A stretch of DNA of 64,000 nt. Source: Leucobacter sp. OH1287. Its GTDB lineage: Bacteria; Actinomycetota; Actinomycetes; Actinomycetales; Microbacteriaceae. Position numbers and translations under genes: made by a program. The stretch is taken from assembly GCF_003859945.1 (NCBI RefSeq), contig NZ_RQYM01000005.1, positions 62,001-126,000 of the forward strand. Reading direction: 5' to 3'. Below are positions 15,166 to 21,795 of the stretch, in pieces; position 1 is the stretch's first letter; each line of letters begins with the position of its first letter. The notes beneath the pieces are model-generated. The model was not told the DNA's origin, made no database searches, and was given only the letters and a program-made list of their open reading frames with translations.

Positions 15166-15897
15166 GTGAACACCGCAGAGAACAGCAACAGAAATTTGAA
15201 GCGACTGGTTTTCGCACTCTTCGGCGTTGTCGTGGTTTTGGCCGCGCTGCTGATTGTGCAGCTCACTCGCCAGTCTCCGGCAACACTAGAAAACCAGCCG
15301 TCAACAGGCACAACCGCGGATGCCGCGAAGGGTGATAGCGCCAGCGGCGGCAATGCCGGGCAGGTAAGCACACACCCCGCAGCGATGACTATCGGCGACC
15401 CGGACGCACCGGTTGTGCTGCGGGAGTGGGTTGATATGGGCTGCCCTTACTGTGCCCTGTTTACCACCGACACGCTGCCAACACTAATTTCCGAGTATGT
15501 TGACACCAAGCAGGTTCGCATCGAAGTGAATGTTGTTTCCTTCTTCGGCGAGGGATCCGACCGCGGCGCCGTGGCTGCCCACGAGGCCGCTGACCAGGGA
15601 CGTTTCAAGGAGTTCCTTGACGTCGTGTACGCGGCAGCCCCGGAGGGTAAACACCCGGATCTCACCGAGGCAGAACTGGTTGAGTTCGCGAAACAGGCTG
15701 GGATTAAAGACATTACGGCTTTTGAGGCGGCGCTTGCGGATCCTGCAAACCTGGCACGTGTGCAGAAAGAAACCGCAGCCGCCCAAGCTGTCGGTGTCAC
15801 CAGTGTGCCGTTCTTTGCAATCGGTAATCAGGGAATTGCTGGCGCGCAGCCGGTCAGCGTGTTCCGTGATTTTATTAGCTCACAGGGCGGCAGTTAA
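15166..15897 (+). CDS. Membrane-anchored DsbA/thioredoxin-fold oxidoreductase
   Basis: A thiol-disulfide oxidoreductase facing outside the cell. A basic N-terminus is followed by one membrane helix (about 13-33), a disordered Thr/Ser/Gly linker (40-70), then a thioredoxin fold with active-site CPYC (93-96) and a cis-Pro in VTSVPFF near residue 215. The 243-residue layout matches actinobacterial DsbA-like proteins. GTG 15166 has no strong Shine-Dalgarno, and a possible -10 (TAGGCT) lies close to it, so the transcript may be nearly leaderless. The ccdA gene starts three bases after its stop, so the pair should be co-transcribed. Confidence 0.9.
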   Translation: MNTAENSNRNLKRLVFALFGVVVVLAALLIVQLTRQSPATLENQPSTGTTADAAKGDSASGGNAGQVSTHPAAMTIGDPDAPVVLREWVDMGCPYCALFTTDTLPTLISEYVDTKQVRIEVNVVSFFGEGSDRGAVAAHEAADQGRFKEFLDVVYAAAPEGKHPDLTEAELVEFAKQAGIKDITAFEAALADPANLARVQKETAAAQAVGVTSVPFFAIGNQGIAGAQPVSVFRDFISSQGGS

Positions 15898-15900
15898 ACC

Positions 15901-16740
15901 GTGCAGCTGACACTGCTCGGTGCTTTCGTGGGCGGGGTGCTAACGCTGTTAAGCCCCTGCTCGGCGATGCTGCTACCCGCGTTTTTCGCCTACGCCTTTA
16001 ACGCGCCCGGCAGGCTGGTTCAGCGAACCCTCGTGTTCTTTCTCGGGCTCTGCACAACCCTTGTGCCGCTCGGTGTGCTCGCTTCATCGCTCGGCGCGCT
16101 GCTCAATCAGCATCGTTTCCTGCTGGTGAATCTCGGCGGTGCGCTGTTAATCGTGCTCGGTCTGGTGCTGCTTTTTGACATTCAGCTGCCGATAATCGGC
16201 AGGCTGTTTGGTGCGAGCAGATCACAGGTGAGACAGGGAACGGGTGCCGCCGCCGTGTTTGCTCTCGGCACAATCTACGGGCTCGCGGGCGTTTGCGCGG
16301 GTCCGCTTCTCGGTGCCGCACTCACCTTCGCGGCTTTCTCCCCCAGTGTGTTCAGCGGTGCGCTGATCCTTGCGGTGTTCGCGCTCGGAATGACCGCGCC
16401 GTTGCTGCTGCTCAGCCTGCTGTGGCAGCGGGTGCCCGCGATCCGCGACCTGGTAAGGCCTAGAGAGATTAAAATCGGGCGTATCCACACAACCCTGACC
16501 GCTGTAATCGGCGGGCTTCTAACCATCGCCGTGGGTGTTTTAATGATTGTTTCCCGAGGCACAACCGCGCTCGGCGGACTGCTGCCAACGGCAACACAGT
16601 CGCAGCTTGAAAACTGGGTGCTGGAGCACACAAACGCCGCACCGGGCTGGCTGTTCCCGGTTATTGCCGCTGCTGTTTTGCTTGGCTATTTTGGGTCGCG
16701 GATCCTTTACAAGCGGCGCCTTGTAGCACCTGACAAATAA
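15901..16740 (+). CDS. ccdA: CcdA/DsbD-like cytochrome c biogenesis membrane protein
   Basis: Carries electrons across the membrane from cytoplasmic thioredoxin to an outside thiol protein, probably the DsbA-like partner immediately upstream. It has about six to seven membrane helices in 279 residues, with the paired redox Cys in SPCSAMLLP (C20) and GVCAGPLLG (C132). The start is GTG 15901. No cytochrome c assembly genes (resB, resC) are next to it, so a general role in extracytoplasmic disulfide control is as likely as heme attachment. Confidence 0.9.
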   Translation: MQLTLLGAFVGGVLTLLSPCSAMLLPAFFAYAFNAPGRLVQRTLVFFLGLCTTLVPLGVLASSLGALLNQHRFLLVNLGGALLIVLGLVLLFDIQLPIIGRLFGASRSQVRQGTGAAAVFALGTIYGLAGVCAGPLLGAALTFAAFSPSVFSGALILAVFALGMTAPLLLLSLLWQRVPAIRDLVRPREIKIGRIHTTLTAVIGGLLTIAVGVLMIVSRGTTALGGLLPTATQSQLENWVLEHTNAAPGWLFPVIAAAVLLGYFGSRILYKRRLVAPDK

Positions 16741-16917
16741 CGCATCAATTCCCCCGCTGCTCTATTTAAAACTACGGGTCAAAGCGGTTTTTAGTTTCTT
16801 CCTGGGCTCTCTGTTTGTTAGTATTTAACCAGCGTGCTAACCGCTGTTTACTGTGATGTTAACGCCGGTTAAAACGTAATGGTTACAGTGTGGTTGTCAT
16901 TACCAGGAAGGAACACC

Positions 16918-19272
16918 TTGAAAACCCGATCCCTATCTCAGCGGCGTGCAGCCGCTGTCACCGTGGCGGTTACCGCTACCCTCTGTGGCGCGCTGGCACT
17001 AAGCCCCGCTGCCGCCGCGGCAACAGAACCCGTGCCGCCGACTGACCCGTCAACCGCAGCCGGTGCAGCGACAGCGGGCGAAACCCCGGCAGTTAGCGAG
17101 GCTGCCCCAGCGCCCGCTGCGAACCCGAACGGCGCACCAGCTAGCGGCTCTGCAGCAGTAGCAGCTCCGGCTGACGCGGCCACCCCAGGAGCGCCAAGTG
17201 GCACACCAGACACAGCACCAGACAACCCAGGCGCTAACAACCCGGGTGCCACCGGGGTGAGCCCTGGGGATCCGGGGGTTAATGACGGCGGCGGTAGCGG
17301 ATCCACCGACGCAACCGCGGCAGAAAGCACTGCGCCGCAGCCTGATCCCGCTCGCGATCTAAAGAATGTTGATACGCGGATCACAAACGTGGTGCTGGGG
17401 GTAGGATCCACCAACTCGGAACGCTACCTGGTTTGGTACACAGACCTTGCCCACTCTACCGCGCCGGTTGTTGAGGTGATCCGCCACGACCAGCTTGTTA
17501 ACGGTCAGTTCCCGGAGGCTGGGGCGACCCGGTATGACGGTGCGCAGATTGTTTCGATCCACTCTGGGCAGGGTAAATCGCGCGGATTTGAGGCGTTCAG
17601 CAACAAAACCGTGTTGCGTGATCTCGCGCCGGACACCCGCTACAGCTACCGTATCGGAGACGGTAGCATCTGGCTCGGGCAGTGGAGTTTCACTACCGAG
17701 GCGATTAAGAACGATTGGAGTTTCTTCTACTTTGGTGACGCGCAGATCGGCGCAAAATCCGGTTATCGGAACGCTAATCCGATGGAATCAAGCCTGCAGG
17801 GTGACGCCGACGGTTGGCAGCAGACCCTGAACGTGGCAACCGAGAAATACCCGTGGATCCGCACCATGGTCTCAGCCGGTGACCAGATCGAATCGACCAA
17901 CAAGATCAAACAACACGAGTATGACAGCGTTAAGAACCCGACCGAGCGGGAATATCTCGGATACACAGCGCCAAATCAGCTCAAGGAGCTGCAGCACGCA
18001 GTAAGTCATGGCAACCACGACTGGTACTACGGCGCCGAGGATACATACACTGAGCACTGGAACATTCCTAACTACGATGAGCAGACAATGAACTATTGGT
18101 GGGGGCAGAACAACGTACTATTCCTACATCTAAACACAGAGTTCAATCGCGAACAGCACGCTCCGCTTCATGATTCATGGATGCAGAAGATCATCGCCGA
18201 GCAGGGCAGCAAGTATCAGCACATCGCGGTTGTGATGCACCGCCCGCTCAACTCGGTTGGTGACTTCCACTCGGTTTCACCCGCAACCGATCGGGTGCGG
18301 CGAGTGTTTGGGCCGCTCTTGAAAAAACACGGGATCAACATTCTTTTCACCGGTCACGACCACACCTATTCGCGCTCACACCCGGTAGATAACTACTACC
18401 CTGGTGTCTTTAAGGACGGCGAGTGGACCGGTGCAACAGGTAATTATTACAACCTTGGAACAGGCGATAACGCGCCCAAGGAAATCTATCTAACCGGTGA
18501 CCAGTTCGTGTCGATTGTGGCAAACTCCTCGTCCGGCTCGAAATACTACGATGTGCACCAGACCGCAAACCACGTCTACACCGCGGTTATTAACCAGGAC
18601 TATGTTCCCGAGTACACGGTTGTTGATGTCACCCAGTGCTCACTCACCTACCGCACGCACCGCGCCCAGGCGGTTGGTGCGCACGCGCTGCACAGCATTG
18701 TCGACGAGTTCAAGGTCTACCTGCCGTATGCTCGTCCAACCCTGGCAGCAATGCCGGACATCACCGTCACCCAATCTGAGGCAGCACGTCTGAACCTCAC
18801 CGCTGATGTCACAAGCAGTGTCTGCTATCCCGAAAAATACCCGGTTGTTGTCTCCGGCAGCATTAACACCGAGCTGTTGAACACGCCGCAAACCGTCGAG
18901 TACGCGATCGCCCCGGGCACACCGTGGGAGGTTAAACAGAGCCGCACCGTGACGGTTGTGGCGGATCCGCTGGCCCCGACAACCTCGCAGACACCTGCCT
19001 CAGCACCCACTGCCGCAGCACCCGGCGAGTCTAGCGTCGAGACGGTAACACCGCGTGCTGCTGAGCCCGGCGTCACGGCAGCCGTGAGCGCTGGCGGTGA
19101 GGGCGCGGATGCGCGCCCGGCAACCAGCGGCAGCCACAGCGCCTCACAGCCTGCTGGGCTGGCAAAAACCGGCGCAGCAGCTGGCGATGTAACACTCGCG
19201 GCTCTGGTTGCCGCGGCACTGACTGTTCTCGGCGCAGGCTCGCTTTTGCGGCGACGCCAGCAGCAGGGCTAG
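16918..19272 (+). CDS. Secreted purple-acid-phosphatase-like metallophosphoesterase with LAKTG wall-sorting signal
   Basis: An exported phosphoesterase of about 784 residues. I place the start at TTG 16918 because AGGAAGG stands just upstream and it gives a clean signal peptide (MKTRSLSQRRAAAV then a hydrophobic core ending AAAAATE); the frame is open from ATG 16879. Order: signal peptide, about 110 residues of Ala/Pro/Gly/Thr-rich linker, an Fn3-like domain, then the calcineurin-like core with GDAQIG (273-278), AGDQ (320-323), GNHD (365-368), H441 in VMHRP and GHDH (479-482). The end has LAKTG (748-752), a hydrophobic helix and RRRQQQG, a sortase signal of the LAxTG kind associated with class E sortases. 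No sortase gene lies in the window. Likely role is phosphate scavenging at the surface. Confidence 0.9.
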   Translation: MKTRSLSQRRAAAVTVAVTATLCGALALSPAAAAATEPVPPTDPSTAAGAATAGETPAVSEAAPAPAANPNGAPASGSAAVAAPADAATPGAPSGTPDTAPDNPGANNPGATGVSPGDPGVNDGGGSGSTDATAAESTAPQPDPARDLKNVDTRITNVVLGVGSTNSERYLVWYTDLAHSTAPVVEVIRHDQLVNGQFPEAGATRYDGAQIVSIHSGQGKSRGFEAFSNKTVLRDLAPDTRYSYRIGDGSIWLGQWSFTTEAIKNDWSFFYFGDAQIGAKSGYRNANPMESSLQGDADGWQQTLNVATEKYPWIRTMVSAGDQIESTNKIKQHEYDSVKNPTEREYLGYTAPNQLKELQHAVSHGNHDWYYGAEDTYTEHWNIPNYDEQTMNYWWGQNNVLFLHLNTEFNREQHAPLHDSWMQKIIAEQGSKYQHIAVVMHRPLNSVGDFHSVSPATDRVRRVFGPLLKKHGINILFTGHDHTYSRSHPVDNYYPGVFKDGEWTGATGNYYNLGTGDNAPKEIYLTGDQFVSIVANSSSGSKYYDVHQTANHVYTAVINQDYVPEYTVVDVTQCSLTYRTHRAQAVGAHALHSIVDEFKVYLPYARPTLAAMPDITVTQSEAARLNLTADVTSSVCYPEKYPVVVSGSINTELLNTPQTVEYAIAPGTPWEVKQSRTVTVVADPLAPTTSQTPASAPTAAAPGESSVETVTPRAAEPGVTAAVSAGGEGADARPATSGSHSASQPAGLAKTGAAAGDVTLAALVAAALTVLGAGSLLRRRQQQG

Positions 19273-19492: not shown

Positions 19493-19559
19493 GGTTAAAC
19501 TCCCCTGTTAAAACCGGGAACACCAAAAGAGCCTTTCAGCCCGGGTGTTTTGGAAGAAG

Positions 19560-19637
19560 TGGTGGGCGATACTGGATTCGAACCAGCGACCTCTTCCGTG
19601 TCAAGGAAACGCGCTAACCAGACTGCGCCAATCGCCC
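19560..19637 (-). tRNA. tRNA-Val (GAC)
   Basis: The acceptor GGGCGAT at 19637-19631 pairs with ATCGCCC at 19570-19564, the discriminator is A at 19563, and CCA is encoded at 19562-19560. The anticodon loop TTGACAC gives GAC. The D-arm (GGCGCAGTCTGGTTAGCGC) and T-arm (GCTGGTTCGAATCCAGT) are canonical. It is third in the Gly-Cys-Val cluster. Confidence 0.95.
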
Positions 19638-19647
19638 TAAAAAGGAG

Positions 19648-19718
19648 AGGTGGCGACGGGATTCGAACCCGTGTATACGGCTTTGCAGGCCGCTGCCTCG
19701 CCTCTCGGCCACGCCACC
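19648..19718 (-). tRNA. tRNA-Cys (GCA)
   Basis: Acceptor GGTGGCG at 19718-19712 pairs with CGCCACC at 19655-19649; the discriminator is U (19648), the cysteine identity base. The anticodon loop CTGCAAA gives GCA. No CCA is encoded. It has 71 bases, as usual for tRNA-Cys. Confidence 0.95.
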
Positions 19719-19756
19719 GCAGTGGTTGCCACTACATATTGGTTTTAGAAAACCAG

Positions 19757-19829
19757 AGCGGATGACGAGACTCGAACTCGCGACCCTCACCTTGGCAAGG
19801 TGATGCGCTACCAACTGCGCTACATCCGC
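19757..19829 (-). tRNA. tRNA-Gly (GCC)
   Basis: Acceptor GCGGATG at 19829-19823 pairs with CATCCGC at 19764-19758, with U as discriminator at 19757. The anticodon loop TTGCCAA gives GCC, and the T-arm carries GTTCGAG. It is first in the transcribed order; no CCA is encoded. Confidence 0.95.
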
Positions 19830-20066: not shown

Positions 20067-21065
20067 ATGAGTTCAAAAGTGCGCAAGGTAATCAAACGCG
20101 CCTTTTGGCTGACCCTGGTGAGCCTGCTTATCGCCTCCGGGGTTATTGCTTACATCAACCGGGTTGAGATCCAAAACCGCATCAACGCGGCAAACTATCA
20201 CCCAGACGAGGTGATGTTAAACGTCATTGAGAGTATTTCCCTAACCGACAAGGGCGATCTGCTGATCCGATCCACCCACCCGAATATCACCGACGGCGAA
20301 AACTTTAGAAACAACTGCTCCAAGGTGGACCACTCGGAGAACGGGCACATTCTCGGCTGTTACCTGCCGGACAGTCACGAGATCCACCTGCTGCTCGTCA
20401 CCGATGAGCGCCTGAAGGGCATCGTTGAGGTGACGGCCGCTCACGAGATGCTGCACGCCGCCTGGGCGCAGATGCCCGACAATTTCCGGCACCGGCTCTC
20501 GAAGCGGATCAAAAACTACTACGACGGCATCAAAGACAGCAACCCGGTGCTCGCCGAGCGGATGCAGGTGTATGAGCATCTGAAACAGCGCGACTTCGTC
20601 AACGAACTGCACAGTGTGCTCGGAACCGAGGTTGCGGAACTGCCCGACTGGCTGGAGGAGCACTACGCGCAGTGGCTGAAGAACCGCAAACAGGTTGTTG
20701 AGCTCTACGAAAACTACCGCCAAATCTTCGTTGACCTGCAAAACGAGGCGGACGAGCTGCAGCGGCAGATGAAGGAGCAGCGCGCGGACATTGAGGCGCG
20801 CTCAGAGGCATACAAAACCGCGGTCGCAGACTTTAACGCGGCGGTTGTGACCTTCAACACCGACGTCGAAAACGGCCGGTACGACAACGACCGCGATACC
20901 CAGCGGCGGATCGCAAACGACCTCACCCAGCAAAAGACCGCGCTGGAGGCAACCGGCGAGGCGATTAACAGTGACATCGCCGACTACGAGGAGAAACGGC
21001 AGCGCCTGCTGGAGATCAGCGAAATCTCCGGTGAGCTCTACCGCAACCTCGACTCAATCGACTAG
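20067..21065 (+). CDS. Membrane-anchored HExxH putative metallopeptidase with a C-terminal coiled coil
   Basis: A 332-residue protein I cannot assign to a named family. Visible: a basic N-terminus and one membrane helix (12-30); an outside domain with a Cys pair (C84, C98) and TDERLKGIVEVTAAHEMLHA, where HEMLH (126-130) is an HExxH zinc-protease signature; then a long charged, heptad-like region (about 200-332) that should form a coiled coil. I recall similar EVTAAHEMLHAA segments in uncharacterised proteins of other Gram-positives and Saccharibacteria, from memory only. A third zinc ligand is not obvious; E140-160 region candidates are unclear. It stands alone between the tRNA promoter region and a convergent MazF-fold gene. 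A role in envelope remodelling is speculation. Confidence 0.7.
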   Translation: MSSKVRKVIKRAFWLTLVSLLIASGVIAYINRVEIQNRINAANYHPDEVMLNVIESISLTDKGDLLIRSTHPNITDGENFRNNCSKVDHSENGHILGCYLPDSHEIHLLLVTDERLKGIVEVTAAHEMLHAAWAQMPDNFRHRLSKRIKNYYDGIKDSNPVLAERMQVYEHLKQRDFVNELHSVLGTEVAELPDWLEEHYAQWLKNRKQVVELYENYRQIFVDLQNEADELQRQMKEQRADIEARSEAYKTAVADFNAAVVTFNTDVENGRYDNDRDTQRRIANDLTQQKTALEATGEAINSDIADYEEKRQRLLEISEISGELYRNLDSID

Positions 21066-21123: not shown

Positions 21124-21795
21124 CTAGAGCTTTCGACCGTGCACAGCGGAAACAGCCTGCAACGCCTGCTGATACTGCTGCAGGGTGACAAGATCGCCCT
21201 CGCGTCGCATCCCGTGCGTTGTGACGCGCAGCAGCCGCTCCGGGTTCAGGTAGCTGTCGCGGTTTTGCGGATCCCATCCCCCGCGCCCGATCGCGGCAAA
21301 ACCCTGATGATACTTCGAGGAGAGGTAGCAGGCGGCAACGCTTGTGTCGTCAATCCGACCGAGCACCAGCACCGGCCGATCCTTCCCGCGTCCGTCATTC
21401 TCGGCGTAGGGCACCCAGGTCCACACAACCTCGCCCGGATCGGGGTCACCGTCGGGGTTTGGGGCATAACCGGTGCGGATCCGAGAAAGCTCCGCCGCGC
21501 TCAGATCGCGGGTTGCGGTGCTGCCATAGCGGCCGGGGGTTTCTGAGGCGAGGACGGTGGATCCACCAGCGCGCTCGCCGTTTTGGCCAGCGCCCCTGGA
21601 ACCACTGTTTGTGTTACCGGACAGCCCACCGAGCACCTGCTCGATGGTGCTCTGAATACCGCCGAGACCACCGCTGTTGCTACTGCCTGAACCGTAGCCG
21701 CCGCGAGAGGACTGTGAACCGCTGTTGCCTCGGTTGCGCATATAGTCGGTGACAATACTCTTACCGATTTTGAACAGCATACTCTTCAGACTCAT
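21124..21795 (-). CDS. PemK/MazF-fold family protein with a long disordered N-terminus
   Basis: The last 110 or so residues (DPDPGEVVWTWVPYAENDG from 117, then KDRPVLVLGR) match the MazF/PemK barrel. The first 110 residues are Gly/Ser/Asn-rich and probably disordered after a short amphipathic start (MSLKSMLFKIGKSIVTDYMR). No antitoxin gene is next to it, and such stand-alone, extended members are common in actinobacterial core genomes, so a classic toxin role is doubtful. It lies 54 bases downstream of zapE on the same strand. Whether the RNA-cleaving residues are kept I cannot tell. Confidence 0.8.
   Translation of the reverse strand: MSLKSMLFKIGKSIVTDYMRNRGNSGSQSSRGGYGSGSSNSGGLGGIQSTIEQVLGGLSGNTNSGSRGAGQNGERAGGSTVLASETPGRYGSTATRDLSAAELSRIRTGYAPNPDGDPDPGEVVWTWVPYAENDGRGKDRPVLVLGRIDDTSVAACYLSSKYHQGFAAIGRGGWDPQNRDSYLNPERLLRVTTHGMRREGDLVTLQQYQQALQAVSAVHGRKL

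Follow-up and report, generated by a model that had tools for sequence, protein, structure and literature searches.

A putative membrane-anchored zincin peptidase family of Saccharibacteria, also found in part of the Microbacteriaceae

Results

The gene and its surroundings

The window, that is the whole stretch of 64,000 nucleotides of Leucobacter sp. OH1287 DNA analysed here, contains at 20067-21065 (+ strand) a complete gene which, read from its ATG start, codes for a protein of 332 residues and is present in a single copy in the source assembly, a Microbacteriaceae genome of 1.9 Mb. Basic residues precede the sole hydrophobic segment of this protein (residues about 12-30; 20100-20156), which hydropathy and charge predict to be a transmembrane anchor of N-in/C-out orientation and which lies in a helix (3-30) of the structural model. 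The anchor is followed by a predicted zincin-like extracytoplasmic domain (residues 42-206; 20190-20684) and by an antiparallel coiled-coil hairpin (residues 207-328; 20685-21050) modelled with a pLDDT of about 98. The domain carries the only two cysteines of the protein, C84 (20316-20318) and C98 (20358-20360), and, within the segment E121-W133 (EVTAAHEMLHAAW), the motif HEMLH (residues 126-130; 20442-20456), in which H126 and H130 are putative zinc ligands and E127 a putative catalytic residue. Further along are Y169 (20571-20573), a candidate transition-state tyrosine by analogy with Y178 of PPEP-1, and E180 (20604-20606), a candidate third zinc ligand.

An earlier note on this DNA had described a single membrane anchor, a Cys pair, a zinc-protease motif and a long coiled coil. 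The anchor and the two cysteines are indeed present, and the numbering given there for H126 and E127 is exact. The description of the tail is correct in that it is helical, but the prediction shows a pair of long helices (207-268 and 276-328) running antiparallel, hence a hairpin instead of a single simple coil.

Upstream of the gene, an array of tRNA-Val(gac), tRNA-Cys and tRNA-Gly (19560-19829, - strand) flanks the insertion site discussed below. The ORFs that overlie it (19550-19765), such as MEEVVGDTGFEPATSSVSRKRA, are almost certainly not real coding sequences but translated tRNA genes. The reading frame at 16879-19272 codes for a purple-acid-phosphatase-like protein with an N-terminal signal and a LAKTG-type C-terminal anchor, which is probably attached to the cell wall. 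On the other side, the product of 21124-21795 (- strand) has a C-terminal PemK/MazF-like domain scoring just under the Pfam cut-off, and its gene adjoins that of an AFG1/ZapE-like ATPase.

Conservation and topology of the family

Conservation was counted in an alignment of 125 family sequences. C84, G97, C98, E127, H130 and E180 are the same in all of them, 121 sequences retain H126 and 124 retain Y169, and T187, L196, E197, Y200 and R207 are nearly invariant. The poor conservation of the motif that the earlier note had named as an argument against its own reading is therefore not what the family displays, and the third zinc ligand that it advised looking for has a candidate in the invariant E180, on a predicted helix (174-188) that comes after that of the motif. 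The exceptions at H126 are four Saccharimonadia sequences (L133, L134, L137 and L141) in which a Tyr takes its place (TAAYEMLHA), while E127, H130 and E180 are retained. These members possibly represent a lineage with an altered metal site or a lost activity, and catalysis would thus not be required everywhere. The loss of activity considered in the earlier note is accordingly an idea that may hold for these four, but it is unlikely for the Leucobacter copy.

The hydrophobic anchor pattern is found in 119 of the 120 main-family members and the distribution of charge is that of an N-in protein in 111 of these 119, the basic residues ahead of the anchor predicting an N-in/C-out orientation for the family. 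The invariant Cys pair fits an extracytoplasmic C84-C98 disulfide. A route to such a bond would be offered by the DsbA-like and DsbD/CcdA-like genes found at 15166-16740 of the window, 4 kb upstream. The length of the hairpin is well kept, both main groups having a median of 131-132 residues beyond R207. On the other hand, the saccharibacterial paralogues keep HExxH, the Cys pair and E180 with only 12-15 residues after R207 and almost no coil, which rules out the coil as the defining feature of the family.

Other arrangements were also encountered. Coil-less second copies of the domain (L125, 3174-3902, - strand; L126, 2831-3682, + strand) occur in Saccharimonadia genomes that also have a tailed copy. 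In other Patescibacteria (genomes G583 and G565), L123 (2701-3891, + strand) and L124 (2967-4352, + strand) represent a different family architecture, in which the zincin domain is preceded by a long N-terminal extension that carries a separate anchor and a segment containing Cys. Two full-length copies of the gene stand in tandem in one Microbacteriaceae genus (G802:C1:509761-511878 and G907:C216:3204-5325).

Predicted fold and sequence-profile searches

AlphaFold2 models built with an alignment of 85 sequences reached a pLDDT of 96.2 for the whole protein (pTM 0.88) and for residues 42-216 (pTM 0.92), with HEMLH on a helix at 119-135. Fold comparison of the full-length model was dominated by the hairpin and returned generic coiled coils of the PDB (PI3K p85 iSH2 etc.). 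When the domain was compared without the coil, the top-ranked solved structures were zincin metallopeptidases or proteins of their fold, with moderate Z-scores of up to 8.5; the Foldseek E-values against the PDB were weak (best 0.12, none significant). The Pro-Pro endopeptidases PPEP-2 (6fpc; Z 7.3 over 138 residues, 3.9 Å) and PPEP-1 (6.5) were followed by IrrE/PprI (6.1), Wss1/SPRTN (about 5) and the M13 peptidases (about 4.6), and in a viral library the domain resembled zincin-like domains of phage proteins (best E 0.0016). We read the domain of residues 42-206 as a predicted zincin fold. The earlier note would have been contradicted by an HExxH helix buried, without a metal site, in the predicted fold; the predicted fold is zincin-like and not an unrelated one.

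No Pfam or NCBIfam model names the family when the 332-residue protein and 85 relatives are searched; the matches obtained were all weak and were set aside as noise from the coiled coil or as faint echoes of HExxH (DUF2268, M8, DUF6237, the Hvo_1808 family and MXAN_6640). A profile search of PDB sequences returned coiled coils only and no homologue of the domain. With 85 domain sequences and E-values up to 1, no PPEP/M34-type model was present among the 25 most frequent families listed, and since no sequence model of M34 matched we claim no membership in it. A weak profile similarity to LemA (PF04011) over residues 206-268, which 6 of 16 members show with an E-value of 0.0018 at best, is probably a generic coiled-coil likeness; membership in LemA was rejected, the score being 16 bits for a gathering cut-off of 26.2. 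The literature on Saccharibacteria does not mention the protein in the text searched. We hold with high confidence that the family is real and conserved and that its members share a domain of predicted zincin-like fold.

Distribution, gene order and origin

The gene is carried by 16 of 59 genomes searched, all 16 being Microbacteriaceae. A scan of genome contigs with the single sequence gave no match; when GTDB contigs were scanned with an alignment, 522 related loci emerged. The distribution was read from the best 80 of these 522, which belong to Microbacteriaceae (Leucobacter, Canibacter, Klugiella, Salinibacterium, Rathayibacter, Subtercola and others) or to Saccharibacteria, apart from a few loosely labelled MAGs (bacterium, Patescibacteria, Nomurabacteria, Micrococcales, actinobacterium); beyond the best 80, a few family members may occur in other phyla. 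The likeness to proteins of Saccharibacteria that the earlier note pointed out is borne out, these organisms accounting for nearly all the non-Microbacteriaceae among the best 80 of 522 loci, while the "other Gram-positives" that it mentioned narrow to the Microbacteriaceae in the sampled genomes.

Among Saccharimonadia, 170 of 195 genomes have a match with E ≤ 0.001, which is only a weak one in about eight. A sample of the wider phylum yielded few strong matches, mostly Saccharimonadia drawn again, together with shorter-tailed relatives (genomes G600, G583 and G565). About one third of the Microbacteriaceae genomes match (91 of 249), a few of them through the coil alone; the matches are spread over 38 of 85 genera. 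In 296 genomes sampled from the Actinomycetota at large there was no further strong match, the remaining ones being to the coil region, and no carrier of the gene was found among plasmid, phage and IMG/VR sequences. The protein of one genome of the same genus (L004) is identical to that of Canibacter zhoujuaniae (L022) in the trimmed tree alignment, so that the window probably stems from a species of the Canibacter type. In one Microbacteriaceae genus, a suspicion of pseudogenes with internal stops was dismissed, the gene being open in both genomes checked.

In Saccharibacteria the gene occupies a widespread order, in which names are given by sequence reading: nusA, clpC, the gene, radA, a PIN/TRAM (YacL-like) gene and, on the opposite strand, a penicillin-binding-protein-like gene. 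Taken in its longest reading frame, the gene overlaps the end of clpC by a median of 21 bases; radA starts a median of 16 bases past the end of the gene. Of 35 further copies from diverse Saccharimonadia, 31 are preceded by clpC and 27 are followed by radA. The clpC neighbourhood suggests a possible link to protein quality control.

In the Microbacteriaceae lineage of Leucobacter, Canibacter and Klugiella the gene adjoins the Val-Cys-Gly tRNA array, and in other lineages of the family it is found at different sites. In Leucobacter and Klugiella it sits between the tRNA-Gly of the array and a tRNA-Val(cac); the window is devoid of the latter downstream. Across the family, the gap between these two tRNA genes measures 1189-1392 bp with the gene inside (5 genomes) as against 98-688 bp, with a median of 172, in 44 others. 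In trees rooted on the paralogues and other Patescibacteria, the Microbacteriaceae are nested within Saccharimonadia, with 98/93 in the more careful one, and the Saccharimonadia form one side of a branch in none of its bootstrap trees. A single saccharimonadial clade was not rejected by the AU test (p 0.237 and 0.108), so that the direction of transfer is based mainly on gene order and distribution. For a gene that nearly all genomes of one class carry in a syntenic position and that is scattered patchily through one family, the simplest explanation is a transfer from Saccharibacteria to Microbacteriaceae. This family includes a known Saccharibacteria host, Leucobacter aridicollis (PMC11452946), and the gene probably passed from the parasite to the lineage of its host; L016 may represent a second, weakly supported transfer. 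The reverse history, in which the gene would be old in Actinomycetota and would have moved from Microbacteriaceae to Saccharibacteria, appears very improbable to us. It is compatible with the outcome of the AU test, but it would require a gene from one lineage of a single family to have entered the stem of an entire class, whereas the domain was not found elsewhere in the sampled Actinomycetota, and the Microbacteriaceae copies are patchy, those of one lineage occupying a gap that is short elsewhere.

Discussion

The model that we propose, and that we consider reasonably probable as a whole, is that of a zinc peptidase of the gluzincin type, clan MA(E), of saccharibacterial origin, anchored in the membrane and acting outside the cytoplasm on the envelope of the cell that makes it. 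H126 and H130 of HEMLH would hold the zinc together with E180, with E127 activating the water molecule and Y169 stabilising the transition state, in a domain that the C84-C98 disulfide would brace. Since the hairpin is dispensable in the paralogues, we take the zincin domain as the core of the protein; the hairpin would either determine how far from the membrane the active site can act or serve for the docking of a partner. That the protein is an active peptidase is put forward with moderate confidence from its conserved residues and modelled fold. Its substrates would most likely, but with low confidence, be proteins of the cell's own envelope, whose cleavage or trimming would contribute to the processing, the release or the quality control of surface proteins. 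The family, whose gene is co-linear in Saccharibacteria with clpC and radA, would have arisen in these organisms and moved once or twice into the Microbacteriaceae, in which it would be partly retained.

Part of these observations would also be accounted for by a structural scaffold, in which the zincin residues are kept for stability or for metal-dependent folding and the hairpin is the working part, as a spacer in the envelope or a rod on which a partner docks. Such a protein could well tolerate the YExxH of the four Saccharimonadia members, the rest of which is kept, and would call for a hairpin of well-conserved length. Against it stand E127, invariant in all the aligned sequences including the YExxH members without being a zinc ligand, and the paralogues, in which HExxH, the Cys pair and E180 are preserved and the coil is almost absent; we regard a scaffold as unlikely.

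The substrates could also belong to another cell, the peptidase of the epibiont acting on the host or that of the host on the epibiont. The protein is predicted to be tethered to the membrane rather than secreted, its gene is ordered with the housekeeping genes clpC and radA, many of the Microbacteriaceae that carry it are free-living, and nothing points to contact-dependence. These features make such a role quite improbable in our view, in spite of the predicted extracytoplasmic location, the near-universal presence in an epibiotic class and the presence of the gene in Leucobacter, a genus with a known Saccharibacteria host (PMC11452946). The chances are likewise small that a core envelope peptidase of the epibiont, captured by the family that contains some of its hosts, now acts at the host-epibiont interface; if this were so, it could for instance process or shed the surface structures used by the epibiont.

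A peptidase of the cell's own envelope, the reading that we prefer, would provide a putative function and testable residues for a protein which is common to most Saccharibacteria, beside clpC and radA, and which is unnamed in the libraries searched. The study also brings forward a candidate gene transfer from a parasite to the lineage of its host, with a visible empty site. Furthermore, culturable Leucobacter species carry the gene, so that ordinary genetics becomes possible outside epibionts that are hard to grow.

Relation to known systems

The best structural matches of the domain are to the lethal-factor-type fold (M34), with Z-scores of 7.5-8.5 over 136-156 residues at 8-14% identity, many of the best rows aligning to a different, N-terminal domain of lethal factor and not to its catalytic domain. 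Unlike lethal factor, the Leucobacter protein has no multidomain architecture and no binding domain, and nothing hints at a toxin role. IrrE/PprI, SprT/Wss1 and the minigluzincins (selecase, abylysin) have the zincin core with HExxH in common with it, but they are cytosolic or soluble, have other third-ligand arrangements and match with lower Z-scores (4-6). LemA, a membrane-anchored helical bundle often encoded beside M48 peptidases, has a weak profile likeness below the curated cut-off.

The secreted Pro-Pro endopeptidases PPEP-1 (Zmp1) and PPEP-2 have a zincin domain similar in extent to the predicted one (Z 6.5 to 6r5b and 7.3 to 6fpc, in a range of 5.8-7.3 that lies below the decisive level), and no match is seen at the level of sequence. 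The membrane tether, the coiled-coil hairpin and the Cys pair distinguish the Leucobacter protein from them. In PPEP-1, the Glu zinc ligand follows HExxH and the Tyr. The same succession of HExxH, Tyr and Glu is found in the Leucobacter protein, in which the catalytic Glu and the Tyr are 42 residues apart, as against 35 in PPEP-1 (from the mutant names E143A/Y178F). PPEP-1 frees adhesins from the surface of its own cell (PMC6447587).
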